Of a stretch of 64,000 bases of DNA, positions 1-60,700 are shown piece by piece (position 1 is the first letter of the stretch; every line of letters starts with the position of its first letter). A model generated the notes under the pieces. The model was not told the DNA's origin and ran no database searches. It saw only the letters and a program-made list of their open reading frames with translations. A program made the position numbers and the translations under genes. This DNA is from Lepus europaeus (lineage: Eukaryota; Chordata; Mammalia; Lagomorpha; Leporidae), in assembly GCF_033115175.1 (NCBI RefSeq), contig NC_084831.1:11380540-11444539 (forward strand), given 5' to 3'.

Positions 1-612
1 ACCAGAGACTTGCCGGGGTGTCCCGGGAGCGTCAGGGATGGCAGTGACCAGAGACTTGCCGGGGTGTCCCGGGAGCGTCAGGGATGGCAGTGACCAGAGA
101 CTTGCCGGGGTGTCCCGGGAGCGTCACAGGGATGGCAGTGTCCAGAGACTTGCCGGGGTGTCCCGGGGAGTGTCACAGGGATGGCAGTGTCCAGAGACTT
201 GCCGGGGTGTCCCGGGAGCGTCACAGGGATGGCAGTGTCCAGAGACTTGCCGGGGTGTCCCGGGAGCATCAGGGATGGCAGTGTCCAGAGACTTGCCGGG
301 GTGTCCCGGGAGCGTCACAGGGATGGCAGTGTCCAGAGACTTGCCGGGGTGTCCCGGGAGCGTCAGGGATGGCAGTGTCCAGAGACTTGCCGGGGTGTCC
401 CGGGAGCGTCAGGGATGGCAGTGACCAGAGACTTGCCGGGGTGTCCCGGGAGCGTCAGGGATGGCAGTGTCCAGAGACTTGCCGGGGTGTCCCGGGAGCG
501 TCACAGGGATGGCAGTGTCCAGAGACTTGCCGGGGTGTTCCGGGAGCGTCACAGGGATGGCAGTGTCCAGAGACTTGCCGGGGTGTTCCGGGAGCGTCAG
601 GGATGGCAGTGT
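1..612. repeat. 46/48-bp minisatellite, about 13 copies
   Basis: Copies start near 1, 47, 93, 141, 190, 238, 284, 332, 378, 424, 470, 518 and 566. The core is CAGAGACTTGCCGGGGTGTC, then CCGGGAGCGTCAGGGATGG. Length variation comes from a CA insertion (GTCAGGG versus GTCACAGGG). It lies in NECAP2 intron 2 and may extend left of the window. The open frames through it follow the repeat and are not genes. Confidence 0.97.
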
Positions 613-20050: not shown

Positions 20051-21058
20051 CCTGGGGTAACCTACCGCGGTGTATGGTACACACGGCAAGTTCTGGTCCC
20101 AGGCCTGGGGTAACCTACCGCGGTGTATGGTACACACGGCAGGTTCTGGTCCCAGGCCTGGGGTAACCTACCGCGGTGTATGGTACACACGGCAAGTTCT
20201 GGTCCCAGGCCTGGGCTAACCTACCACAGTGTATGGTACACACGGCAGGTTCTGGTCCCAGGCCTGGGCTAACCTACCGCGGTGTATGTTACACACGGCA
20301 AGTTCTGGTCCCAGGCCTGGGCTAACCTACCGCGGTGTATGGTACACACGGCAAGTTCTGGTCCCAGGCCTGGGGCTAACCTACCGCGGTGTATGGTACA
20401 CATGGCAAGTTCTGGTCCCAGGCCTGGGGTAACCTACCGCGGTGTATGGTACACACGGCAAGTTCTGGTCCCAGGCCTGGGCTAACCCTACCGCGGTGTA
20501 TGGTACATACGGCAAGTTCTGGTCCCAGGCCTGGGGTAACCTACCGCGGTGTATGGTACACACGGCAGGTTCTGGTCCCAGGCCTGGGGTAACCTACCGC
20601 GGTGTATGGTACACATGGCAAGTTCTGGTCCCAGGCCTGGGGTAACCTACCGCGGTGTATGGTACACACGGCAAGTTCTGGTCCCAGGCCTGGGCTAACC
20701 TACCGCGGTGTATGGTACATACGGCAAGTTCTGGTCCCAGGCCTGGGGTAACCTACCGCGGTGTATGGTACACATGGCAAGTTCTGGTCCCAGGCCTGGG
20801 GTAACCTACCGCGGTGTATGGTACACACGGCAAGTTCTGGTCCCAGGCCTGGGCTAACCTACCACGGTGTATGTTACACACGGCAAGTTCTGGTCCCAGG
20901 CCTGGGCTAACCTACCGCGGTGTATGGTACACACGGCAAGTTCTGGTCCCAGGCCTGGGGCTAACCTACCGCGGTGTATGGTACATACGGCAAGTTCTGG
21001 TCCCAGGCCTGGGGTAACCTACCGCGGTGTATGGTACACATGGCAAGTTCTGGTCCCA
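20051..21058. repeat. 53-bp minisatellite, 19 copies
   Basis: Unit core TAACCTACCGCGGTGTATGG, TACACACGGCAAGTTCTGG, then the palindrome CCAGGCCTGG. Copies differ by single bases (CACACGG/CATACGG/CACATGG; GGGGTAAC/GGGCTAAC). The variants recur in blocks, suggesting larger multi-unit duplications. Confidence 0.97.
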
Positions 21059-22112
21059 GGGGCCTGGCTCTTGTTTGCCCCAGGGTCTTTGCTATAATTA
21101 CCAGTCAGCAGTGGAGAATAAAGAAGGGTCGGTGGGTCGGAGCGGCTGGTGGGTTTGAGTCTCCCAGGTGGTCTTGGAGGGGCTGCAGGGAGGTCAGCCT
21201 TGCAGGGCAGGTGGGCGAGGGCCCAACAGGGTGGCGAGGGTAGGGGTGCGAAGCTTGGTGTCGCTCTGCAGTACCCTCTCGATAATGGCTGGGGTCTGGA
21301 GCTGGGGGGCCAGCGTAAGGATAGTGATGCTGCAGCCCTAACCGAGGGCATGGCTACACCCGGGGCCTCAGGCGCCTAGCGTGTTAGAGGTCACTTCTCA
21401 TTCATGCCTGCTGTTGGGTCATTGGCAGGTGGTCCTCTGGACCACGGACCCAGACCACTTCCATCTGGGGTTCCCCTGGGACCTTGGGGTTTTTCCTTCT
21501 GGCTGAGGGACAGGGTGGGACAGAGAGCAGTCCTCATGGGAGAGTTTTAACGGGTCAGGTCAGAAGTGGCACTCTCCTGTCTTAATTCTGCTGGCTAGAG
21601 CTCTATCACATGGCTGCATCTAACTGCAAAGGAGTCTGGGATACGGCTTCTGCCCGTACTCCCTGGAGGAATCAGAAATCTTTCGAGGTGAATGTTAGGA
21701 AAAGCGCAGAACAGAGAGGAGGTGGTGTCCAAATCTACAGCCAGACCGATTTTATTCAGAGAAAAAAAATTCGCTGAAGTGGGTGACCAACTGCTGGCGT
21801 GCACATTGATGGAACACAGGGCAGAGGGCCTCAACCCCAGGGGTAGGGCCGTTTTATATTTTAGGAGGGCTGGGGCTGAGGGTGGGGGTGGGGGTAGCAG
21901 GTGGAGGGGAATTCCTGGGCCAGGTCTTTCAGGTGGCCGCGGGGGGCCTTAGGAACCTGCAAAAGAATGCGGGGTGGGGTATGCAGGCTATGGGGTGTGA
22001 GACCCAGTTGAGATTCAAGGGCAAGGAATACACCCAAAGTTTACCTGTCTTTTGGGCAGAGTGAGAATGGCTGAGGCTTAGGTCTTTGTTCCATCAGTGA
22101 ACACACAGCAGT

Positions 22113-30300: not shown

Positions 30301-33300
30301 CTCACCCAGGGCCCTTCCCTGCAGCTGGAGCAGGCTGTGCGGCTGGAGTGTGGGGAGCCAGAGACGCAGGAGCCGCGGGGGCTGGTGCGGCAGAGCGTGG
30401 AGCTGCGGAGGCAGCTGCAGGAGGAGCAGGCCTCCTACCGGCGCAAGCTGCAGGCCTACCAGGAGGGCCAGCAGCGGCAGGCCCAGTTGGTGCAGCGGCT
30501 GCAGGCCAAGGTCAGGGACGCCCACCCCCACTCCTGCCCCCACGCCGCGCGCTCACTTTGCCGTGCCCTCTACACAGGGGCTGATCACTGCCCCCTCCAC
30601 CCCAGATTCTCCAGTACAAAAAGAAGTGCTCGGAGCTGGAGCAGCAGCTGCTGGAACGATCCTCGGAGCTGGAGCAGCAGCGGCTGCGGGTGGGTGCCGG
30701 GGGGTGGGGGGGGCAGGCCCTCCCAGCCCAGCCTGATGCCCCCCTCCCCTCCCCCGGCTCCCGCCAGGACGCAGAGCACAACCATGACCTGGAGAGCGCC
30801 CTCCTCCGCCTGGAGGAGGAGCAGCAGAGGTGAGGGCGTGGCGGCGAGGGCCCAGGGCTGGCAGATTGCCCCCACTCCCCCCACCCCGTGCACAGGCCCA
30901 CTGGCCCCCTTCCCTCCACCAGGAGCGCCAGCCTGGCACAGGTGAATGCCATGCTCCGAGAGCAGCTGGAGCAGGCGGGCTCGGTCAACCAGACTCTGAG
31001 CGAGGACTTACGCAAGGTGACCGGCGACTGGACACGCAGCCGCCAGGAGCTGGAGCAGCGGGAGGCGGCGTGGAGGCGCGAGGAGGAGGTGGGCGCGGTG
31101 CTGGGCCAGCCTGACCGGGGGGGGGGGGGGCCCTTTGAGGGGGTGAGGACTTGGGCTGCTGAGGAGGGGAGCGTCCAGCAGAGGTGCGAGCCCTGAGTGC
31201 CCCTGGCCTGTTACATGTTCCCTCGTGTGCCAGGCGCTGTCTATGCTCATTAGAGAGACAGGTTAAGTGACTTGCCCACGGCCATGCAGGATGCAGGTGC
31301 AGGTGGCCGGTACCTCCTGCAGCCCAGCTGGGAGAGGCATGGAATCCCAGGCCCCCGTGCAAGAGGGAGCTGGGGAGGCCTAGGGGCAGGAGCATGGCCG
31401 CTCCTGCACAGGCTCCGAGCAGGCCCGGGTGGTGGGTGGCCGGGCGGCCGTGGTGGGGGGCCGGGGCCGGGGCCGGGGTGGGGGACAGGCAGCAGAGCCG
31501 CCTCCCGCAGCCCCCACTGTGGCGCCTCTCCCTTGCAGTCCTTCAACGCCTACTGCAGCAGCGAGCACAGCCGCCTGCTCGTGCTCTGGAGACAGGTGGT
31601 GGGCGTCCGGCGGCTGGTCAGCGAGATGAAGATGGGCACTGAGAGGTGAGGCCCGGCTGGCCGCGGGGCTGCCGTGGGGTGGGGGCGGCTGGTCAGCGAG
31701 ATGAAGATGGGCACTGAGAGGTGAGGCCCGGCTGGCCGCGGGGCTGCCGTGGGGGGGGGGCGGCTGGTCAGCGAGGTGAAGATGGGCACTGAGAGGTGAG
31801 GCCCGGCTGGCTGCAGGGCTTCCGTGAGTGGGGCGGCTGGTCAGCGAGGTGAAGATGGTCAGAGAGGTGAGGCCCGGCTGGCCGCGGGGCCGCCATGGGG
31901 GGGGCGGCGGCTGGTCAGCGAGGTGAAGATGGGCACTGAGAGGTGAGGCCCGGCTGGCCGCGGGGCCGCCATGGTGGGGGGCGGCGGCTGGTCAGCGAGG
32001 TGAAGATGGGCACTGAGAGGTGAGGCCCGGCTGGCCGCGGGGCCGCCATGGGGGGGCGGCGGCTGGTCAGCGAGGTGAAGATGGGCACTGAGAGGTGAGG
32101 CCCGGCTGGCCGCGGGGCCGCCATGGTGGGGGGCGGCGGCTGGTCAGCGAGGTGAAGATGGGCACTGAGAGGTGAGGCCCGGCTGGCCGCGGGGCCGCCG
32201 TGGGGGGGGGGGGCGGCTGGGAGCCCGCCCTGCTCTCTGTGTGCCAGGCCTCGCACGGGTGGAGACGCAGTCGTGCTGATGAGCTGCTGCCGGGTGTCCT
32301 CTGAGCGGGGTGCCCCGCACCTCGTGTCATCCTGCGTTCACAGTGTCCCTGTGAGCCAGGGACGGCCACAGCCCATTTTATAGCTGCAGACTTGAAGCTC
32401 AGGCTGAGTAATCTTTGCAAGGTCACACCGCACCAAGCTGCTGTTGGGATTTGAAGCTCCTGGCTTTTTTTTTTTTTTTTTTTTTTTTAACTCAAGGATT
32501 TATTTATTTGAAAGAGAGGGGGGGAGACAGAAATTTTTCTGTCCACTGGTTCTCTGTCTAAATGACTGCAATGGCCACGGCTGAGCCAGGCCGGAGCCAG
32601 GAGCCAGGAACTTCATCCAGGTCTCGCAGGAGGGTGGCAGGAACCCACGTGCTTGGACGTCTTCTGCTGCTTCCCAGACGCAATGCGGGAGGCTGGATCG
32701 GAAGCACGGAGTAGCCAGGGCTCAGAGCTGCATGCAGGTGTCCGGGAGCAGCTCAGCCCACTGCACCCCAGCGCCGGCCCCAGCCCCTGCCTCTAATTCA
32801 CTAGGGCGTTCAGCTTTGCTACAAGGCCCTTGCAATAGCTAGAGATGAAAAGACCCTCAGAATCCTGGCTGGGGCAGTGAGCGGGCAGAGGGAATGTCCC
32901 AGACAGGTCAGAGCGAAGCGGAAGCTTCGAGGAGGCCGGGAGACAGCACTGGCCCGGAGCCTCAGGGGCTGGGTGGTGGGAAGCCAGCAGGGCTGGGGGC
33001 AGTGCAGGGAGCGGGCACAGCACGGCCAAGGCTGGGAGGGGCCGCCAGTATGGGGGGGTGAAGAGCAAGTGAGGGGGGTAGGTCCCGCCTCTGCTGGGAC
33101 AGTCACCGCAGGTGAGGGAAACCCAGAGGCCAGAGACCAGGTGTCTCCTTGCTAACGAGTTTTGTTCGGGGCCGTAGTTAGATCTCTGCTTGGGATGCCT
33201 GCATCTCATGGGAGCGCTCCTGACGGCAGCCTCCTGTCAGTGCACCCTGGGAGGCGGCCTGTGCTGGCGCAAGGCCTTGGTCCTGCCCCCGCTGGGAGGG

Positions 33301-36300
33301 ACCCACGGGGAGTTCCTGGCTCCCAGCTTCTGCCTGGCCCCAGCACAGCTGTTGTACACATTTGGGGAATGAACCAGAGGATGGGAGCTCTTTCTGTCTT
33401 TGTTCTCTGCCTTTCAAAAGAAATAGATTAAAAATAAAAAATAACAATAAACACAGAGGAAAAGATTTAAAAAAAAGTCTAATTGGTCATCTTTTGGTGA
33501 TACAATGTGCAGATTGCTGACCCTCGTCACAGACGGTCGGCTGTGCTTTGTCTGTAACTTGTGTGAATCAGGAGCCACAGAACATTTACAAAATGTAATA
33601 TTTTTTTGTTTTGTCTTTTAGTCTCTTTTAGCTCATTTGTTCAGGAAAGCTGGCCAGTTGTCCTTAGAGCGTCCCATAAGGTGGCTTTTGCTGGTCATAT
33701 CCCTGGGGTGTCGTTTAACGTGTGCCCCATGCCCCGCACTTCCTGTGAGCTCCGTGGTGGCACTCAGCTGGGTAAGGTCAGGCTCTTGTGGTCCAGGGCA
33801 GGGCTGCCGGGGCTTGGCTGTTTCTTTCTGCTGATGTTGGCAACTCTTTTTTTTTTTTTTTAATTTATTTATTTCTCTGAAGGGCAGAGTTACAGAGAGA
33901 GAGGGAGAAACAGAGAGGAAGAGAGACCTTCTCTCCACTGGTTCACTCCCTGACATGTCTACAATGGCAGAGGATGAGCCAGTCTGAAGTCAGGAGCCGG
34001 GAGCTTCCTCTGGGTCTCCCAGGTGGATGCAGGGGCCCAGGGACTTGGGCCGTGTTCTGCTGCTTTCCCAGGCCACAGCAGAGAGCTGGATCAGAAGTGG
34101 AGCAGCCAGGACTCAAACTGGTGCCCATATGGGGTGCCAGCGTCATAGGCAGCAGCTTAACCCGCTGTGCCACAGTGCTGGCCCAGTGTTGGCAACCCCT
34201 GCTGCCCAGTGCCAAGACCCAAGCAGTCCTCAGAGACTGCAAAGTGGAGGTGTTCTTCTGTCACCGTCTGTGCATTGATAAGGAATTCTGGAGTGAGCCT
34301 CTTCCTCGGACTGTGGGGTCCCGGGGGACGGATCATTCACGAGAAGGAAGGATTTACCCTGCATCACGGCTTTGAAAGGCCTTTGCTTTTCAATTCGCAT
34401 CTAAAATATCTGCATTTACTCTGAAGAGGTCCCAGCCGACAAGGTGCACAGTCAGAAGGCTGTGCAGTGAGGCCCCCCTCCTCTCTCTGGCCCCAGACAC
34501 GCCCTCACTTCCGGAGGCAAGAGCATTCCTGGTGTCCTACGTGACCATCTGGGGGCGTTTATACAGGCACGTAAATAAGAGCGCACACACACGCACACAC
34601 GCAGGGTCATACACACACAGTCATACACATACACACAGACACACTCACATGCAGTCATACATACACAAAAACACACATACTCACATACTCACGTACACAC
34701 ACACGTGCAGAGTCATACACACAGACACACATACTCACACACTCTCACATACACACACGTGCACACAGTCATACACACTCTCACATAAACATGCAGAGTC
34801 ACACATACACACAGACTCACACACACACAGGGTCATACACACTCATACACACACACAGTCACACTCACATATTCACACATGCAGAGTCATACTGACTCAC
34901 ACATACACACATACACACGGACTCACACACATACACACTCTCACATACACGCACATGCAGAGTCATACACACAGACACACATACTCACACACTCTCACAT
35001 ACACACACGTGCACACAGTCATACACACTCACATAAACATGCAGAGTCACACATACACACAGACTCACACATACTCACACACACAGGGTCATACACACTC
35101 ATACACACACAGTCACACTCACATATTCACACATGCAGAGTCATACTGACTCACACATACACACATACACACGGACTCACACACATACACACTCTCACAT
35201 ACATGCACATGCAGAGTCACACATACACACAGACTCACACATACTCTCAAACACACACACAGACACACACACAGGGTCATGCACACCGATATACACACAG
35301 TCACACTCACATATTCACACATGCAGAGTCATACTGACTCACACATACACACATACACACAGACTCACACACATACACACTCTCACATACACGCACATGC
35401 AGAGTCACACATACACACAGACTCACACATACACACACATGCAGAGTCACACATACACACAGACTCATACTCTCAAACACACACAGACACACACACAGGG
35501 TCATGCACACTGATATACACACAGTCACACTCACAGACTCACATGCAGTCATACAGACTCACTCATACACACTCTCAGACACACACACAGACTCATGCTC
35601 TCACATACACACACATGCAGAGTCACACATACACAGACTCACACATACTCTCACACACACACAGACACACACACAGGGTCATGCACACTGATATACACAC
35701 AGTCACACTCACATACACACATGCAGAGTCACACACAGACACACATACTCTCACACACACACAGACACACACACAGGGTCATGCACACTGATATACACAC
35801 AGTCACACTCACATACTCACATGCAGAGTCATACAGACTCACTCATACACACTCTCACACACAGACACACACACAGGGTCATGCACACTGATATACACAC
35901 AGTCACACTCACAGACACATACATGCAGAGTCACACACAGACTCACACATACACACTCACACACAGACACACACAGGGTCATGCACACTGATATACACAC
36001 AGTCACACTCACATACTCACACATGCAGAGTCATACTGACTCACATACACACTCACATACACACAGACTCACACTCACATACACACTCTCACATACACAC
36101 ATGCAGAGTCACACATACACAGACTCACACATACTCTCACACACACAGGGTCATGCACACCGATATACACACAGTCACACTCACATACTCACACATACAG
36201 AGTCACATACACAGACTCACACATACACACTCACACACAGACACACACAGACTCACACACACATACACTCATATACACACATGCAGAGTCACACATACAC

Positions 36301-39300
36301 AGACTCACACATACTCTCAAACACACACAGACACACACACAGGGTCATGCACACTGATATACACACAGTCACACTCACATACTCACACATGCAGAGTCAT
36401 ACTGACTCACACATACACACTCACATACACACAGACTCACACATACACACTCTCACATACACACATGCAGAGTCACACATACACAGACTCACACATACTC
36501 TCACACACACACACAGGGTCATGCACACCGATATACACACAGTCACACTCACATACACACATGCAGAGTCACACATACACATGGACTCACACATACTCTC
36601 AAACACACACACAGACACACACACAGGGTCATGCACACCGATATACACACAGTCACACTCACATACACACACATGCAGAGTCACACATACACACAGACTC
36701 ACACATACTCTCAAACACACACACAGACACACACACAGGGTCATGCACACTGATATACACACAGTCACACTCACATACTCACACATGCAGAGTCACACAC
36801 AGACTCACACTCACACACACACAGACACACACACAGGGTCATGCACACCGATATACACACAGTCACACTCACATACACACACATGCAGAGTCACACATAC
36901 ACACAGACTCACACATACTCACACACACACAGACACACACACAGGGTCATGCACACCGATATACACACAGTCACACTCACATACACACACATGCAGAGTC
37001 ACACATACACACAGACTCACACATACTCACACACACACAGACACACACACAGGGTCATGCACACCGATATACACACAGTCACATACTCACACATGCAGTC
37101 ATACATACACACGGACTCACTATACTCTCAAACACACACACAGACACACACACAGGGTCATGCACACTGATATACACACAGTCACACTCACAGACTCACA
37201 TGCAGAGTCACACACAGACCCACACATACTCTCAAACACACACAGACACACACACAGGGTCATGCACACTGATATACACACAGTCACACTCACATACACA
37301 CATGCAGAGTCACACACAGACTCACACATACTCTCACACACACAGACACACACAGGGTCATGCACACTGATATACACAGTCACACTCACATACACACATG
37401 CAGAGTCACACACAGACTCACACATACTCTCTCACACACACAGACACACACACAGGGTCATGCACACTGATATACACACAGTCACACTCACATACACACA
37501 TGCAGAGTCACACACAGACTCACACATACTCTCACACACACAGACACACACACAGAGTCATGCACACTGATATACACACAGTCACACAGACTCACACCCA
37601 GACAGGCTCACACGCTCTCACAGACACACAGACACAGTCACACTCACACACCGTTTTGGGATGCTGTCAGCCCTGTGTTTCTGTGGCATCAACCAGCTGC
37701 AGATTAGAAACGCCGTGGCCTGGGGCAGGTGTCCCGGCCAGAGATGCCTGCGCCCCACGTCTGAGTGCTGGGCCCGGCTTCTGAGTCGCTCCCGGTGGCA
37801 GCTTCCTGCCGACGCAGAGCTGGGCACTCCTGCCGCCTCTGCGGCAGATCTGGATCGCATCTCTGCTCCAAACGCCCAGCCTGCGCCCTGCCCAGCCCTG
37901 GCTGTCGCTGGCTCTTGCTGGAGTGAATCAGCAGATAGGCGCTCTCTTCCTCTGCCTGTGTCTCAGTTAAATACATTTGAAGAAAAGTGTCTGAATGTGG
38001 ATACTTTCCTGTTACTATTCCCTACAATACAACATAACAATATTTTCATAGCAATTTCATTGCACTAGGATTTAGAATTAATCTATAGGGGCCGGTGCTG
38101 TGGCACAGTGGGTTAACACCCTGGCCTGAAGCTCCAGCATCCCATATAGGTACCGGTTCAAGACCCGGCTGCTCCACTTCCAATCCAGTTCTCTGCTATT
38201 GCCTGGAAAAGCAGCAGAGGATGGCCTATGTCCTTGGCCCCTGTGCCCATGTGGGAGACCCAGAGGAAGCTCCTGGCTCCTGGCTTCAGATCAGCGCAGC
38301 TCCGGCCATTGCGGCCAACTGGGGAGTGAACCAGCGGATAGAAGACCTCTCTTTCTCTCTCTGCCTCTACTCTCTGTATAACACTGACTTTCAAATAAAT
38401 AAATAAATAAATCTTTCTTTAAAAAAAGAATTAATCTATAGCTGATGTAACATACAAAGTCATGTACCAGGCCGACACCGTATTATGGAAGGGATTTTTG
38501 TATCCGTGAGGGGTCTTGGAACCAATCCCCTGCAAATCCCAAGGGACAACTCTATACTCCTGGAAGAATTTCATCTTTGAAGTTCTTTAAAATGCATTCT
38601 TTTTTTTTTTTTTAAAATATCTATGTATTTGTTTATTTGAAAGGCAGACAGGCAGGCATTTTGGCATAGCAGGTAAAGCCACTGCCTGTGATGCCAACAT
38701 CCCACTTATGGGCACTGACTTATGTCCTGGCTGCTCCACTTCTAATCCAGCTCCTTGCTAATGTGCCTGGGGAATGCAACAGGAGGTGGCCCAAGAGCCT
38801 GGCTCCCGCCATCCATGTGGGAGACCTGGATGAAGCTCTCGGCTCTGGCTTTGGTCTGGTCCAGCCCTGGGCTGTTGCAGCCACTGGGGAGTGAACCAAC
38901 AAGAAGAAAGATTTCTTTCTCACTCTCAAATAAATAAATAAATAAATCTTAAAAAAAAAAAAAGGCAGAGTGACAGGAAGAGAAAGAGAGCACATTTGAT
39001 CTTGCATCTGCTGGCTTACCCCCCAGTTGCCCTCAACAGCCAGGACTGGGCCAGAGCCAGGAATCCACCTGGGTCTCCCATACGGGTGGCAGGGACCCAC
39101 GTACTCAATCCACCTGCTGCCTCCCAGGCACACCGGCAGGGTGCTGGGTCAGAAACAGAGTAGCTGGGACTCAGTCCAGCACTCGGCCGTGGGATGTGGA
39201 CGTAGGCGAGCTGTGGCTCAGCCGCTGCAGCAGGAGGACGCACTCTTCCTGTCCCAGCTGTGCTGGGCGCCGGCTCCAGATGAGGAGGGACGCGCGTCCC

Positions 39301-42300
39301 CGTCGGCTTTTCTCGCCGCGGTGTTCCAGGGAGTGGACGCACCCGAAGTGATTTACCAGCACGCCTCTGGTGGACGTTGGGCCAGCGCTTTGACCAGTAC
39401 AGGAAGTTATCTGTGCCCGGGTCATTCCCCGGGGCTGCTGTATCTGCAGGGCACACCCGTGGAGGTGGTGGCGGAGAGGCTCCTGCCCTAAGCGGCTGTG
39501 CCCGCTGCCCTGGCCGCTGGCCCTGCTGCCCCTTAGCCCAGCACGCTGTGCTGTGGTTATCTGACAAAGACAAATGGCCTCCCAGCATGCCCTCAATTTG
39601 TACTTGGTCGCCACCCCCATTCCGTCCCCATCCTGTGCCCTCTCCCCTAGGGACCTACTGCAGCTGGGAGGGGAGCTGGCCCGGACATCGCGGGCCATCC
39701 AGGAGGCAGGCCTGGGGCTGAGCGCAGGCCTGCGGCTGGCGGAGGACCGGGTCGAGGCAGCCCTGGAGAAGCAGGGGCTGCTGGAGGCCCAGCTGCGGGA
39801 CAAGGTGCGGCGGGAGAAGGACCTGGCCCAGCTGCAGGTGCAGAGCGACCTCGACAAGGCTGACCTCAGTGCCAGGTGCGTGGCGGTGGGTGCCGTCTGA
39901 GGCTTCCCCAGAGTGTGCGGGGTGCTCGCTGCCCGGCACCCTGTTTGAGGCTCTGAGGCCTCTTACCCAGGGCACGGCATGAGCAGTTTAGCTTCTGAAG
40001 ACAGGACATTTGCTCTGCCTCCTGCCTCCTGGGCAAGTCCCACAGGTAATGCCTGTGGTGAGCTCGTTCCCACTTCACAGATGAGAAGTCCAAGGCCCAG
40101 AGGGAAGTGCCCTGCTAGGGTGGGGGGTGCTGGAGCCCCTGTTTAGGCCTGGGGAGGTGTCTGGGGAGGTCTGGGGAGGTCCCACCCTGCTAGGGTGGGG
40201 GGTGCTGGGGCCCCTGTTCAGGCCTGGGGAGGCGTGAATGACACAGGAGCTGATGGGCTTGAGGAGAAGCTGGTGAGTGGTGGGGGTCCCACCGTCTGCT
40301 GCTGCCCCATGTCCAGAGTGGCAGAGCTGGCCCGGGCAGTGGACCACCTTCGGAGCCAGAGCGTGGAGAAGGACCAGGTCAACAAGGCCCTCACTGAGAA
40401 GCTGGAGGCCCTGGTGAGATGCAGGACCCCGGGACGTGGCAGGGCAGGGGCAGGGCAGGGCGGGCCACAGGCGTGGACACAGGCTCAGGCCTCCGAGCAC
40501 CCCCTCGGGCTCAGGGTCACCTCCGAGTGTGCTCCCAGCTTAGTGGCAAGCACACCCACCCCTGGCCACCTGCCAGCAGCCCCGCACATGACCCCATTGC
40601 ACAGGTGGGAAGACCAAGGCCCAAGAGGGACAGTGCATGTGCAGAGTCTCAGAGCCGAGGGCAAGGGAGACAGGACTGGATTCCTGCCCGTGTCCCCAGA
40701 GGATCTCAGCTGTCACCCCTGAGCGTACCGCCTGCCTAGGTCATCGTCCTGGGTGGGGCCGGCCCCGGGTTCCGGGTCCAGCTGTCTTCCAGCTGCCTGT
40801 GCGGTAGTGAGGCTGTGGGGGCCTCGCAGAGGCTGGCCCGGGAGCAGCCCTGGAGGCCACCTGGTGATGGTGCAGGAGAGGAAGGTCCGATTCCAGCCTT
40901 GGTCTACCTAACCTCTCCCCAGGAATCCCTGCGCCTACAGGAGCAGGCGGCCCTCGACACTGAGGACGGAGAGGGGCTGCAGCAGACCCTGAGGGACCTG
41001 GCACAGGTGCGTGGTGGGAGAGAGCCCAGAGAGGCAGGACGGGTGAGGCGGGGACCCTGGGCAGGCTCGGCCAGGCGTTCTGGGCTGCCGGCCGCGTCCT
41101 CTACTGGCCTTGCACTGAATTGCAAGAGGGTAGGGGGCCTGAGGACCCCAGGCGGCTGTTCCGCATCCCTGCTAGCTCAGTGGCCTCTGCCCCCGGGGAC
41201 CCCAGGCTGCGCAGGAAGGCACAGCACTTTCCAGGGCCACATGTGAGAAATTCTGGCCTTTGTCTTTGCAATAAATGGGAGGCCTTACCTGGCGGGCTGG
41301 GGGCTGCGCATTGCTGGAGGTGGAATCAGGAAGACTTCCTGTAGGAAGGGACATTGGGAGGAAGCCTCCTTGGGCTCAGCTAACTCAGGCTGCCCCTCCT
41401 GCCTCTCCACCCCACCCCAGGCGGTCCTGTCGGACGCGGACAGTGGCGTCCAGCTAAGCGGCTCCGAGCGCACAACGGACGCGTCGGACGGCAGCCTGAG
41501 GGGGCTCTCGGGCCCGCGCACCCCGTCCCCGCCGCGGCGCTCCTCGCCTGGCCGCGGCCGTTCCCCGCGTCGAGGCCCGTCCCCGGCCTGCTCCGACTCC
41601 TCCACGCTCGCGCTGATCCACTCGGCCCTGCACAAGCGCCAGCTGCAGGTCCAGGTGGGGCGGGCACAGCCAGGGCCTGGGGCGGGGCCCCGGTCCCGGG
41701 GGCGGGGCCAAAGGCTGGGAGGCGGAGCCCTGAGGCCAGAGTGGGAGGTGCTTAGATGGCTGGGGGTGGGGCCTGAGGAGGGGCGGGGCCCGGGGAGGGA
41801 CCAGGATGTGGCGGGGCGGAGCTTGGGAGCCGGTTGGTGGGTTCGAGTTAGGCGGGAGCAAGGCTGTGCGGGGCGGGTGCGTGGCCTCCCGCGGGCTTCG
41901 AGGGGACCCGGCGTGGGGAGCTGGGAGTGCGGGGCCACCCCCGACTCGAGGCCCCCATGCCTCAGGACATGCGTGGGCGCTACGAGGCGAGCCAGGACCT
42001 CCTGGGCGCCGTGCGCCAGCAGCTCGGCGACTGCGAGGGGGAGCGCCGCGCCCTGGAGGAGGAGCTGCGGCGCCTGCGGGACGAGGCTGCGGGCGCCGCC
42101 CAGGCGCGGGAGGACGCCCAGCGCGAGGCGCAGCGGCTGCGGAGCGCCGGCGACCTCCTGAGCAGGTGCGGGCCGGGCGGGCGGCCGGACCCGGGCGAGC
42201 CCGCACCGTCCGCCGGTTGCGTGAGGGGCGCTGTGGTGACGCCGCCTCACGGAGTGAACATCAGGTTCCTGGGTCGCGCTGGCCGCGGGTCTACACTTGG

Positions 42301-54700: not shown

Positions 54701-57700
54701 GGAAAACAAGATAGAGCTCCAGGCTCCTGGCTTCAGCCTGGCCCAGCACCAGCTGTCACAGCCATTTGGAGAGTGAACCAGTGGATGGAAGAGCTCTCTC
54801 TCCCTCTCTCTCCCCCTCCCTCCCTCCCTCCCTCCCTCCCTCCCTCCCTCCCTCCCTCCCTCCCTCCCTCCCTCCCTCCTTCTCTCTGTTGCTCTGCCTT
54901 TCAAATTAGTAAATAAATAAAGTTACTCGTCATTGTCGGGGAGAAGGGTGACCCCTGGAGCTGGGTCCCTGCCCTGGGGGTCTTCTGCTTTTTAGTGGGG
55001 CTCAACCCTGCATCCCCCACGTCCCTCAAGAGCAGTGTGGGGCCCCCAAGTTAAATGGTAAACAGGCCGCCTGTGCCCGGGTGCCTGGCATGGCTCCAGC
55101 TGGGTGGCGGTACCTGGAGCAGGCTCCCTCCGGGTGGATGTGGGGTGGCATTCGACGGGGGGAGTCCCTGAGTGCCCCTGGGCCAGGCTGGGGTGGGTGT
55201 GGGGGCAGAGCTGAGCAGGCTGCTGCCTCTGCTCTCGTAGATGAAGACGCTGGACAGCGAGAATGCCAGGCTGGGCCGGGAGCTGGCGGAGCTGCAGGGC
55301 CGCCTGGCGCTGGGCGAGCGGGCAGAGAAGGAGAGCCGGCGGGAGGCCCTGGGCCTCCGGCAGAGGCTGCTGAAGGGCGAGGCCAGCCTGGAGGCGGTGC
55401 GGCAGGAGGTACCTGGGCGGGGGGGGGGGGGCTGGGAGGGGAGGTTCTGGGCTGGAGGGGGTGTGGGAGGAGGTACCTGGGTAGTGGGGGGGCTGGGAGG
55501 GGAGATTCTGGGCTGGAGGTGGTACCTGGGCAGTGGGGGGGGCTGGGAGGGGAGGTTCTGGGCTGGAGGTGGTGTGGGAGGAGGTACCTGGGCAGTGGGG
55601 GGGCTGGGAGGGGAGGTTCTGGGCTGGAGGAGGTACCTGGGCAGTGGGGGGGCTGGGAGGGGAGGTTCTGGGCTGGAGGAGGTACCTGGGCAGTGGGGGG
55701 AGGGAGGAGGTACCTGGGCAGTGGGGGGAGGGAGCAGGTACCTGGGCAGTGGGGGGGAGGGAGGAGGTACCTGGGCAGTGGGGGGCTGGGAGGGGAGGGT
55801 TCTGGGAGGTCGGGGCTGCCTTCCCCTCCCTCCAGCAGGAAGCAGGTGGGCACTCAAGAGACCACTGCCAAGTACTCTTTCTCTGCCCACGCCCTGTCAG
55901 AAGCTTTCCCAGTTGTGGTAATAGCCACGACAACAGTAGAAAGAACAGCAGGCCTACTGTGTGCAGGCAAAGATAGGGTAGGGGGAGATGGAGTTCTGTG
56001 GACATAACCTTGTTTGATTCTCCTAGCAGCCTCATACACAGGTGGTATTAGTCCTACTTTCTAGGGAGAGCCAGACAGACACTGGGACCAGAGAGGTCAG
56101 GGGATCTCCCCAAGGTCACACAGCACCCAGGTCTGCCTTAAGACCTCACTGGAATGTACCATGTGACCCTGACTTGTCACTCAAGCTCCCTGTGCTCAGA
56201 GTGCTCACGGGAGAGGGACCAGCACCGCAGGGGATGAGGACAGTCCTGGGCACAGGTGCTGGCACCTGCTGGGGCTCAGTAGGTGGGCTCCTAGCAAAAC
56301 CAGTGACCAGCAGAGGTGGACACATGCTCTAAACCCTAGGGCTGTTTGCACATCTGTGCCCATGCACTGTCGTGTGTGTCCCCACCATGTGCACTGAGGG
56401 GCAGTGTCGTCCAGTGGTTAGAACAGCCTCCGGGGCTAGTGTGCCAGGCTGGGGCTCCCGGCCCTGCAGCGGGCAGGCTGTGTGACCTGACCCCTGCGTG
56501 CCTGTTTCATCCCCTATGGAGTGGCCATGGGGCCAGCGTGGTCTTGCTGAGGCCTGTGTGTGCCGTGTCGGCTGTCACTGCCGATCCACTGTGTACGCTC
56601 CAAGGCTGATCCTCACAGGACGGAAAGCAAACTCCTGCTTGGGTGGAGACCACTGAAGGCATGGTGTGGTCACCTGGGCTGGAGGGCTGCAGCTGGGCCC
56701 TCGGAGGTGGGGTGTCGCTAGGGGCGGCTTTGCTGACCCCCACCTCCTGGCCTTGCTCTCCCCCCGCCCCAGCTCCAGGGAGCGCAGCGGAAGCTGCAGG
56801 AGCAGGACGGAGAGTTCCGGGTCCGCGAGCGAGGCCTGCTGGGCTCCCTGGAGGAGGCCCGCGGCGCCGAGAAGCAGCAGCTGGAGCGCGCTCGCGGCCT
56901 GGAGCTGAAGCTGGAGTCGGCCCGGGCCGAGGCCGCCGAGCTGGGGCTGCGGCTGAGCGCGGCCGAGGGCCGGGCGCAAGGCCTGGAGGCCGAGCTGGCC
57001 CGCGTGGAGGCGCAGCGGCGCGCGGCCGAGGCCCAGCTGGGCGGCCTGCGCTCGGCTCTGCGCCGCGGCCTGGGCCTCGGCCGCGCGCCCAGCCCCGCCC
57101 CGCGGCCCGTGCCCGGCTCCCCGGCTCGAGAAGCGCCCGCGGGGGGTGAGTCCCAAAGGCAAGCGGGGAGAAGGGGGCGGTGGGCGGGCCTCGCCGAGTC
57201 CCCGCCCCTAGTCCCACCCCACCCTCTGGACCACGCCCTTCAGAGCCCTGCCCCGGGTTCCTGCCTCTGCTCCCTCGCCGTCTCTGGGGCCCCATCCTCT
57301 CCACTCACCCGCGCCCTCTCCCTGCCAACACCCCGTCCTCTGCCGCCGCGCAGCCCAGCCCCACACCGGGCGGTGACCCGGACAGCTCCCCTCATTTGTT
57401 TATTCAGTCACTCCGAACTTAGTAAGCACCTGCTGCGTGCAAGAGACAGTTCAAGTAACGGGGACGGAGCAGTAAGCAGCAGAGACACGGCTCTGCTCTC
57501 AGGGAGCTCCAAGTCGCGGTGTGGGAGTGGTGGGCAGGAGGCTGATGGGTGAATTGCGGTAGGATGTGTGGGCGGTGGCAGGGCTGGAAAAGGGGCGCTG
57601 TGGATTGGTGCAGCCCCTGGTGGGCAGCAGCAGGGCTGCAAGTCCGGGAACTTAGATCCAGCGCGCACTCATCCGCGAGTAGCACAGACTGAGAACGAAG

Positions 57701-60700
57701 TGGGGGACAAGCAGGCGCTCGCCAGCAGGTGCACGTGGTCTGTCTCCCGGGCGGGCGCTCACAGCCGCGACACGGACCGCGCGCGGCGTGTGGGTGAGCC
57801 CTGGCTGCAGTATGCCCGGTGGGACAAGTCAGTGGCAGGAGGACAGCGAGCCGGCCAGCATGGGCCACCTGGAGCAGGTGTCTTCTAGGAACAAGCAGGG
57901 AGCGGTGACCAGGAGGCTACTTTGTGATCCCAGTGTCTCTGTGTGAGGCTGTCTTGGTTTGGGCCCTCCCTGGGTATCCACGGAGACCTGGTTCCAAGGC
58001 TCCCACGCCACACCCAGACCTGCCGGTGTCCAGCGGCGTAGCATTGGCGCATCCCTGCGTTCCGAGCCGGCTCTGGGCTGCCGGTGGGGCCCACCACAGT
58101 GGAGCTGCTGCGTGAGCGGTTGTCAGGCAGTGTTGCTTAGGGAACGACAAGGGAAATGTTCCGAATGGGTTCAGTGTGGATGCACTTTTCTTCCCCAAAT
58201 ACTTTCCGTCTGCACGTGGTGCTGATCGACTGTGCAGGCACAGAACCTGCAGATTCCAGGGTCAGCTGTCTCGGGCTGCGGGGCGGAACCACCAGAAACC
58301 CAGGTCTTCCTATCCTGGGGCCTACATGTGTGAAGTCCAAGTGTGGGCGCCGTGGCCCAGGGCAGCTGCCGGCCAGCCCCTGAGGCGGATGGCAGCCTGG
58401 CCACAGGCAGCCCGTGGTGGTCCTGTGCTGTGTCTGTGCGCGTGACCCCTGTCCAGGACAGTGGTCGCAGGGACCTGTTTCCAGACAAGGTCTTGTTATG
58501 AGGTCCAGGGATGGGGGGTGATGAGAAAGGTGGGTGCTCAGCAGTGCGTGTATAACCCACGCCACTCAGCGGCCCACTGAGAACTGGTTACTAACGCTGG
58601 CCCGCTTTGTCCCTGCAACCGACATCGGCAGGGGGCTGGGGCTGTCGGTGGAAAACGAAGACCTCACAGAGGAGGGCGAGGAAGGTGTCCAGGGAGCAGC
58701 AGGGGTGGGAGCCCGGGGTGGGGAGGGTGGCCCTGAGCCGCAGGGGTGACGGGCAGTGCTGCGAGCAGGGTGGGGTGTCGGGGACACGGCATGCGTGGGC
58801 GCTGCCTGCAGGCTGGGAGAGGGGGCTGGTGCTTACGCGGGGCGGGGGAGGGGGTCATGCTCCTTTGGGTGACCCTTGGCTGAGACAGGAGGGTGTGGAG
58901 GTTAGGGTCCCCTGTCCTGCAGCCGCATGCTCTGCCCCCCCGCCTCGCGGTCCGTCGTCTCCCACCCAGGTCCCCAGTTTTCCTGGCTCTGAGACCTAGC
59001 GTTGAGATCTAGCATAGTGCTAAACTGCTTTGAGCACACCTTGCCTGTGAAGTGCGCATGGGTGTGTGTGTGTGTGTGTGTGTGTGTGTAGTGGGGGTTG
59101 CCTTGCCTGTCAGGGGTTATGTGAGGGGGAATTGAGGCACCACGGGGCTGGCACTGGCCCGGTGCTGGGCACATCGTAGGTGCGTGGTCCAGGGAGGTGT
59201 TGTGGTGGTGGCACATCTGCCTGGGCCATGGCCCTCATGGTCTGGGGGGGTCAGACATTAGACCCCCACGAAGGGGGAGGAGCTCGCTCCCACCCAGCCT
59301 GGGACCAGGGAAGTCTGAGGAAGAGGCCTACAGTATGGGCCAAAGAGAAGCCGGAGGCGGGGGGTGGGCAGGGGGAATAGCATGTATGGAGCGCCTGGGG
59401 CAGGAACAGGGAATGTTCCAGAACACAGGAGCAGAGGGTGGTGCAGGGTGGCCAGCTTTGAGGGAGTGAGGGGTGGTGCTGGGTGGGCCTCCGAGCTCTG
59501 GCAGAGAACTTGGACGTGATGCCGAGGGCCGAGGGGCTGGCGAAGTCCTAGCTACAGCCTGGCTGGGCACACGGCAGGGAGAGCATGAGCGAGCGAGACA
59601 GTTCAGGAGCCCGGAGCGCCGTTCTGGTGGGACAGGCTGGTGGCTCCCACAGGCCTGAGTGCGTCCTGTCCTCTAGGAAGCGAGGAAGGGTTCAGCAGCC
59701 CTGGGTCCCAGCCGCCGTCCCCCGGAGCTGCCACCTCCCCAGCTCCTCCAGACCTGGACCCCGAGGCCGTGCGGGGGGCCCTCCGGGAATTCGTGCAGGA
59801 GCTGCAGAGCGCCCAGCGGGAACGGGTGAGGCCGGGTGGGAGTGGCTGGAAGGGGAGCAGGTGGCCGAGGGTCCTACAGGGGCTTCAGATGTCAGAGCAG
59901 GGGTCTTCCCTTCTCCCCCAACGCGGGGCTGCAGGACGAGCTTCGGACCCAGACAGGCGCCCTGAGCCGCCAGCTGGCCGAGATGGAGGCTGAGAGGGAC
60001 AGCGCGACCTCGCGGGCCAGGCAGCTGCAGAAGGCGGTGGCCGAGAGCGAGGAAGGCGAGTTTGACTCTGGGTCCTGCCCTCTTCCCTGCGCTCCTGGCA
60101 CTGTCTCCCCGGGGCCCTGTGGCGGGTAGGGTGCAGGCTGGGCATTTCGTGGTCTCGGGGCTGTGCCTGGCCATGCCTGATGGGGCTGGTGATGGCCACA
60201 GCCCGGCGCAGTGTGGATGGGCGGCTGAGCGGGGCCCAGGCGCAGCTGGCACTGCGGGAGGAGAGCGTGCGGCGCAGCGAGCGGGAGCGCCGGGCCACGC
60301 AGGACCAGGTGGCCGCGCTGGAGAGGAGCCTGCAGGCTGCCGAGAACGAGCTGCGGGCGAGCCAGGTGGGCAGGTGCCGAGGGCCAGGGAGGGTTGACTG
60401 TGTGCCCGCGGGGGTCAGGGCCGCTGGGGGCTTCTGTCTGCCTGAGTCTCTGCAGCCCCTCGAGTCTGTGAGTCCCCACAACACCCCATCAGCTTCTTAC
60501 CTGAGATCACCAGACTGTAGCAAAAGGGGCTTTTCTTGTATTAAAAAAATTGATTTGAAAGTCAGAGTTAGAGCAAAGAAAGGAGAGAGAGAGAGAGAGA
60601 GAGAAAGAGAAAGAGAGAGGGAGAGAGAGATCTTCCATCAGCTGGCTCACTCCCCAAATGGCCTTAATGGCCAGAGCTGGGCCAGGCCAGAGCTGGGGGC

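Follow-up and report, generated by a model that had tools for sequence, protein, structure and literature searches.

How does the spliceosome choose among eight equal 5′ splice sites that have nearly equal flanks and share one intron? A gene of the European hare poses this question as a natural test. The gene lies in a 64-kb stretch of DNA (referred to here as the window), in which 32 coding exons were placed by reading frame, not from transcripts. Exons 4–9 joined together (exon 9 in part) match all 188 positions of the Pfam Rootletin profile PF15035 with 229 bits, and many coiled-coil-like open stretches come after exon 9, continuing up to the window's end and into the next two kilobases, which led us to call the gene CROCC (rootletin). 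A search for solved structures of this part of rootletin returned none at E 0.001. Intron 8, which contains the splice sites in question, is about 8 kb in length (Table 1).

A unit of about 75 bp, consisting of the end of exon 8 and the start of its intron, had been recognized in an earlier note on this DNA as amplified after exon 8, with an intact donor in every copy, and both observations were borne out. Tandem Repeats Finder reports an array with a period of 75, 8.1 copies, 93% matches and a score of 1024, and its size is beyond chance. Splitting the array at CGGCTGGTCAGCGAG delimits eight units, the first seven of which are 75, 75, 73, 74, 77, 75 and 77 bp in length and the last about 80 bp. 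Each contains the final 33–35 coding bases of exon 8 (35 in every unit except unit 4, which carries a 2-base indel and has 33), the donor GTGAGG and approximately 40 intron bases that terminate in or near a run of G residues, up to 12 of which occur in a row in this array. The donor 9-mer GAG/GTGAGG (slash, exon–intron junction) reads GAGGTGAGG in all eight units. Pairwise identity among the units ranges from 88.7 to 100% over ungapped columns, units 1 and 2 being 98.7% alike, and the few differences revealed by the unit alignment consist of base changes and G-run lengths. The variants are ordered along the array, one being limited to units 1 and 2 and another to units 4–7. The motif GGCGGCTGG is present at both edges of the array; it may have been the seed of the first duplication, or it may merely mark a partial last copy.

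Table 1. Coordinates, within the window, of CROCC features at the exon 8 and exon 25 donors.
Feature	Position	Strand	Basis
CROCC coding exon 8	31539..31645	+	Open frame, its phase consistent with exons 7 and 9; PF15035 match over exons 4–9
Donor-spanning minisatellite, eight units of 73–80 bp	31608..32220	+	Tandem Repeats Finder, unit split, unit alignment
Exonic part of unit 1 (last 35 bases of exon 8)	31611–31645	+	
Donor 1, GTGAGG, the sole frame-keeping one of eight	31646..31651	+	
In-frame TGA, read upon use of any later donor	31647..31649	+	
Unit 2, donor 31721; ATG (Met) variant in common with unit 1	31686..31760	+	Split and alignment
Unit 3, donor 31796; most divergent	31761..31833	+	Split and alignment
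Unit 4, donor 31867; exonic part 2 bases shorter	31834..31907	+	Split and alignment
Unit 5, donor 31943; identical to unit 7	31908..31984	+	Split and alignment
Unit 6, donor 32020	31985..32059	+	Split and alignment
Unit 7, donor 32095	32060..32136	+	Split and alignment
Unit 8, donor 32172; start motif GGCGGCTGG again at the right edge of the array	32137..32216	+	
CROCC exon 9	39651..39875	+	Pyrimidines at 17/20 positions ahead of the acceptor
CROCC exon 25 (our own numbering)	55241..55408	+	Phase 0 end before GTACCT
Second donor-spanning minisatellite: exon 25 donor and eight copies, all weak GTACCT	55388..55793	+	

The phase at the end of exon 8 is 2 (GAG AG/G TGA), and the reading frame remains open into exon 9 from donor 1 alone among the eight. 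The TGA that the earlier note had placed immediately behind donor 1, in frame for the later donors, is indeed met by all seven of them: with donors 2–8, it is the codon that follows GTER, and it lies 71–522 nt ahead of the new junction. By the 50–55 nt rule, RNAs with a stop codon so placed are expected targets of decay. According to a simple donor matrix, the frequencies of which were rounded, all eight sites score 6.27 and occupy ranks 2–9 among the 339 GT sites of exon 8 and intron 8. Because these scores are equal, site strength cannot choose among the eight donors.

We consider it likely that the array is a minisatellite that formed by tandem duplication at the exon 8 donor, that it is mostly neutral and that the first donor is the one used. 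We propose that a single segment, comprising the last part of CROCC exon 8, the 5′ splice site behind it and approximately 40 bases of intron 8, was duplicated in tandem, and that unequal exchange or slippage then led to eight units. Unit 1 would hold the authentic donor, since it is the first in the transcript and defines the normal 107-nt exon, and units 2–8 would be removed with the intron. If a later donor were occasionally used, the resulting transcript should stop right after GTER and be subject to nonsense-mediated decay. Counting against this proposal is the equality of the eight donors by simple scoring, which leaves donor 1 without any advantage in strength.

Arrays of this type are already known. 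Human F7 intron 7 contains 37-bp repeats with many homologous donors, of which the most upstream alone is normally used according to a review, and mutation of the authentic donor shifts splicing to downstream cryptic donors, with non-functional products (PMC6627357). The CROCC array likewise has the authentic donor in its first repeat and homologous donors downstream, although it resides in another gene and is built of a 75-bp rather than a 37-bp unit. Borensztajn 2006 is said to deal with oriented scanning. The hare F7 gene, recognized because it matches factor VII chains of the PDB (E about 3e-22), carries a single donor, GTAAGG, behind exon 7; nothing comparable to the array was found after this exon, the only repeat in L019 8100–8800 being an 8-bp one of 2.8 copies. 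Because hare F7 lacks such an array and the genes are different, the human F7 and CROCC arrays arose separately. Two other minisatellites are located in or beside hare F7, one with a 22-bp unit that covers about 7 kb (L018 1569–8939) and one with a 30-bp unit that covers about 2 kb (L019 3322–5394).

The amphioxus ‘mirages’ of the Adh3 and globin genes are minisatellite-like tandem duplications of exon–intron boundaries, the length instability and splicing of which have been examined (PMC3087553). The units of BflGb6 are 81–100% identical and many carry splice signals, and Adh3 data together with RT-PCR of globin transcripts suggest that splicing is undisturbed by mirages (PMC3087553). The CROCC unit resembles them in spanning an exon–intron boundary, in the 88.7–100% identity of its copies and in having donors intact in 8/8 of them; it differs in lineage and genes, and BflGb6 repeats the acceptor side whereas BflGb9 represents a single donor-side duplicate (PMC3087553). 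Concerted evolution within the CROCC cluster may have taken place, units 5 and 7 being identical and units 1 and 2 98.7% alike, with few changes on which to judge. In human segmental duplications, boundary minisatellite expansion is described as altering gene structure, and intron formation has been proposed (PMC2812944). Those cases concern genes in recent segmental duplications (PMC2812944), whereas no close copy of CROCC was found in the hare assembly among the best candidates of a search with exons 8 and 9. From the F7 and amphioxus precedents, donor 1 is expected to be used and units 2–8 to leave with the intron; the earlier note's view that the first site should prevail is a sound expectation, in line with the human F7 intron 7 case. 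The CROCC array appears to add a new member to this rare but known kind of repeat, and among the matches listed no paper title names a mammalian CROCC array.

Alternatively, the eight equal donors might compete, with donors 2–8 leading to the TGA and to decay, so that rootletin output would be set by how many units are present. Consistent with this idea, the donors are identical and rank 2–9 among 339 GT sites, and every later donor leads to a single stop at a distance from the junction that a decay switch needs. Yet the spare units preserve their donors only as well as chance predicts, 0/9 donor columns being variable versus 7/57 other columns (P=0.34), and the first donor of F7 is reported to be the only one normally used (PMC6627357). 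When exon and donor columns were pooled, 2/41 were variable versus 5/25 intron columns, a difference that is not significant (P=0.09) and that gives slight scope for constraint acting on the copies. These column counts were entered by hand from the unit alignment, and include neither the 2-base indel in unit 4 nor the G-run columns that come after column 66. Usable acceptors were also sought: no AG in 31600–32224 is preceded by at least 12 pyrimidines in 20 positions, compared with 17 for the true acceptor, so that no unit looks able to be an exon by itself, and nowhere in this interval do a pyrimidine tract and AG directly precede a GT, as in a recursive splice site. RNA folding of six of the eight units (1–5 and 8) was ordinary, with z-scores from −0.70 to 0.99. 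The lack of a usable acceptor, the chance-level donor preservation and the unremarkable folding in 6/8 units give no support to tuning by copy number, which we regard as distinctly improbable. A regulatory reading of the exon 8 array is unlikely in general, and units 2–8 probably have little function.

Relatives of the locus were sought in the same genome. A search of the hare assembly with 31500–32300 found, among the best candidates, the array locus and one 67%-identical stretch inside another GC-rich repeat; with this single array locus, no second haplotype was found for comparison. A protein search with exons 8 and 9 gave three matches among the best candidates, namely exon 8, exon 9 and one related exon elsewhere, and these included no retrocopy or close CROCC paralogue in a spliced or one-unit state. 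The related exon, on contig C12, is 49% identical to CROCC and reads FFKGYLKGEHSRLLGLWREVVTFRRHFLEMKSATDR followed by GTCAGT. It presumably belongs to CEP250 or a CEP250-like gene. Its intron shares the position and phase of the intron after CROCC exon 8 and contains no tandem repeat in 3.1 kb, which suggests that one unit is the older state, and the ancestral state was probably a single unit.

The same comparison bears on one codon within the unit, which is ATG in units 1 and 2 and GTG in units 3–8; the CEP250-like gene encodes Met (LEMK), and the Met form of CROCC scores 229 bits against PF15035 versus 227 bits for the Val form. Thus, the translated unit seems to retain the older residue while the intron copies drift. 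The simplest account is that translated unit 1 kept Met, that the intron copies changed and that unit 2 was copied recently from unit 1. Against the overall proposal, this Met/Val argument amounts to 2 bits and one paralogue. The coding sequence at the end of exon 8 belongs to an array that is able to exchange with intron copies.

CROCC contains a second donor-spanning array, at exon 25, which the earlier note leaves unmentioned, and its weak donors offer a paired comparison. Here, the authentic donor at 55409 (GAG/GTACCT) is followed by donors at 55473, 55522, 55584, 55633, 55682, 55710, 55738 and 55767, with exon-end remnants in some units, and the matrix scores of the nine are 0.18 for seven, 1.22 for one and −1.82 for one. 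In contrast to the exon 8 array, there is no immediate stop: three of the eight donors after the first run into a stop within exon 26, and five read through the whole of exon 26 without one, one of these five (55682) being in the normal frame. Within the gene-bearing part of the window, two of the five arrays with units of at least 25 bp span a donor, the other three being a CA-rich simple repeat, one of 2.0 copies and a weak one of 2.8 copies. Chance coverage of any of 31 donors was 16% for a 75-bp unit and 9–13% for 49–64-bp units when GC content and a GGGG run were matched (5.6% and 3.5–4.8%, respectively, when unmatched). The donor set came from 33 matches to 33 exon tails (one tail without a match), from which one tail's second match, in unit 2, and the exon ending near 60060 were dropped. 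With matching, both arrays would fall on donors with a probability of about 1.5–2%, although the arrays were chosen after being seen; thus, two such arrays in CROCC are somewhat more than matched composition predicts, in a post hoc test. The CROCC exon ending in AVAESEE (60054–60070) is without a good GT donor, and a GC donor is possible there.

It is conceivable, though we think it very unlikely, that the two CROCC arrays are hypervariable regulators of splicing, and that repeat number makes individuals differ in the dose and the length of rootletin. If this were true, the exon 8 array, with its strong donors and stop, would act as a decay switch, and the exon 25 array, with weak donors that mostly lack a stop, would generate variation in protein length.

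The existence of a separate array of like type in CROCC also argues against the possibility that a shorter exon 8 array was expanded or mis-joined during assembly. Such an error would be favored by the GC richness and long G runs of the array, which is known here from the assembly alone, and one amphioxus mirage was misassembled in a draft genome (PMC3087553). However, the units differ from one another in base changes, which follow an ordered pattern along the array, and in the lengths of their G runs; these differences argue against stutter of a single unit, and the array sits on a 159-Mb contig. We judge an artefact to be quite improbable. That the units represent a step toward intron or exon gain, as alternative or recursively spliced exons, is extremely doubtful, for although mirage repeats have been proposed to be able to become exons (PMC3087553) and the units contain AG/GT junctions, none has a pyrimidine-rich acceptor and an extended exon meets the in-frame TGA ahead of all copies.

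Tandem repeats of other kinds were observed elsewhere in the window. Intron 8 of CROCC contains a 3-kb CA-rich array with higher-order periods of 102–108 bp (34584–37651). Upstream of the gene, a 53-bp unit is repeated 19 times with 95% matches (20051–21060), and a 46-bp unit is repeated 13 times at the start of the window (2–612).
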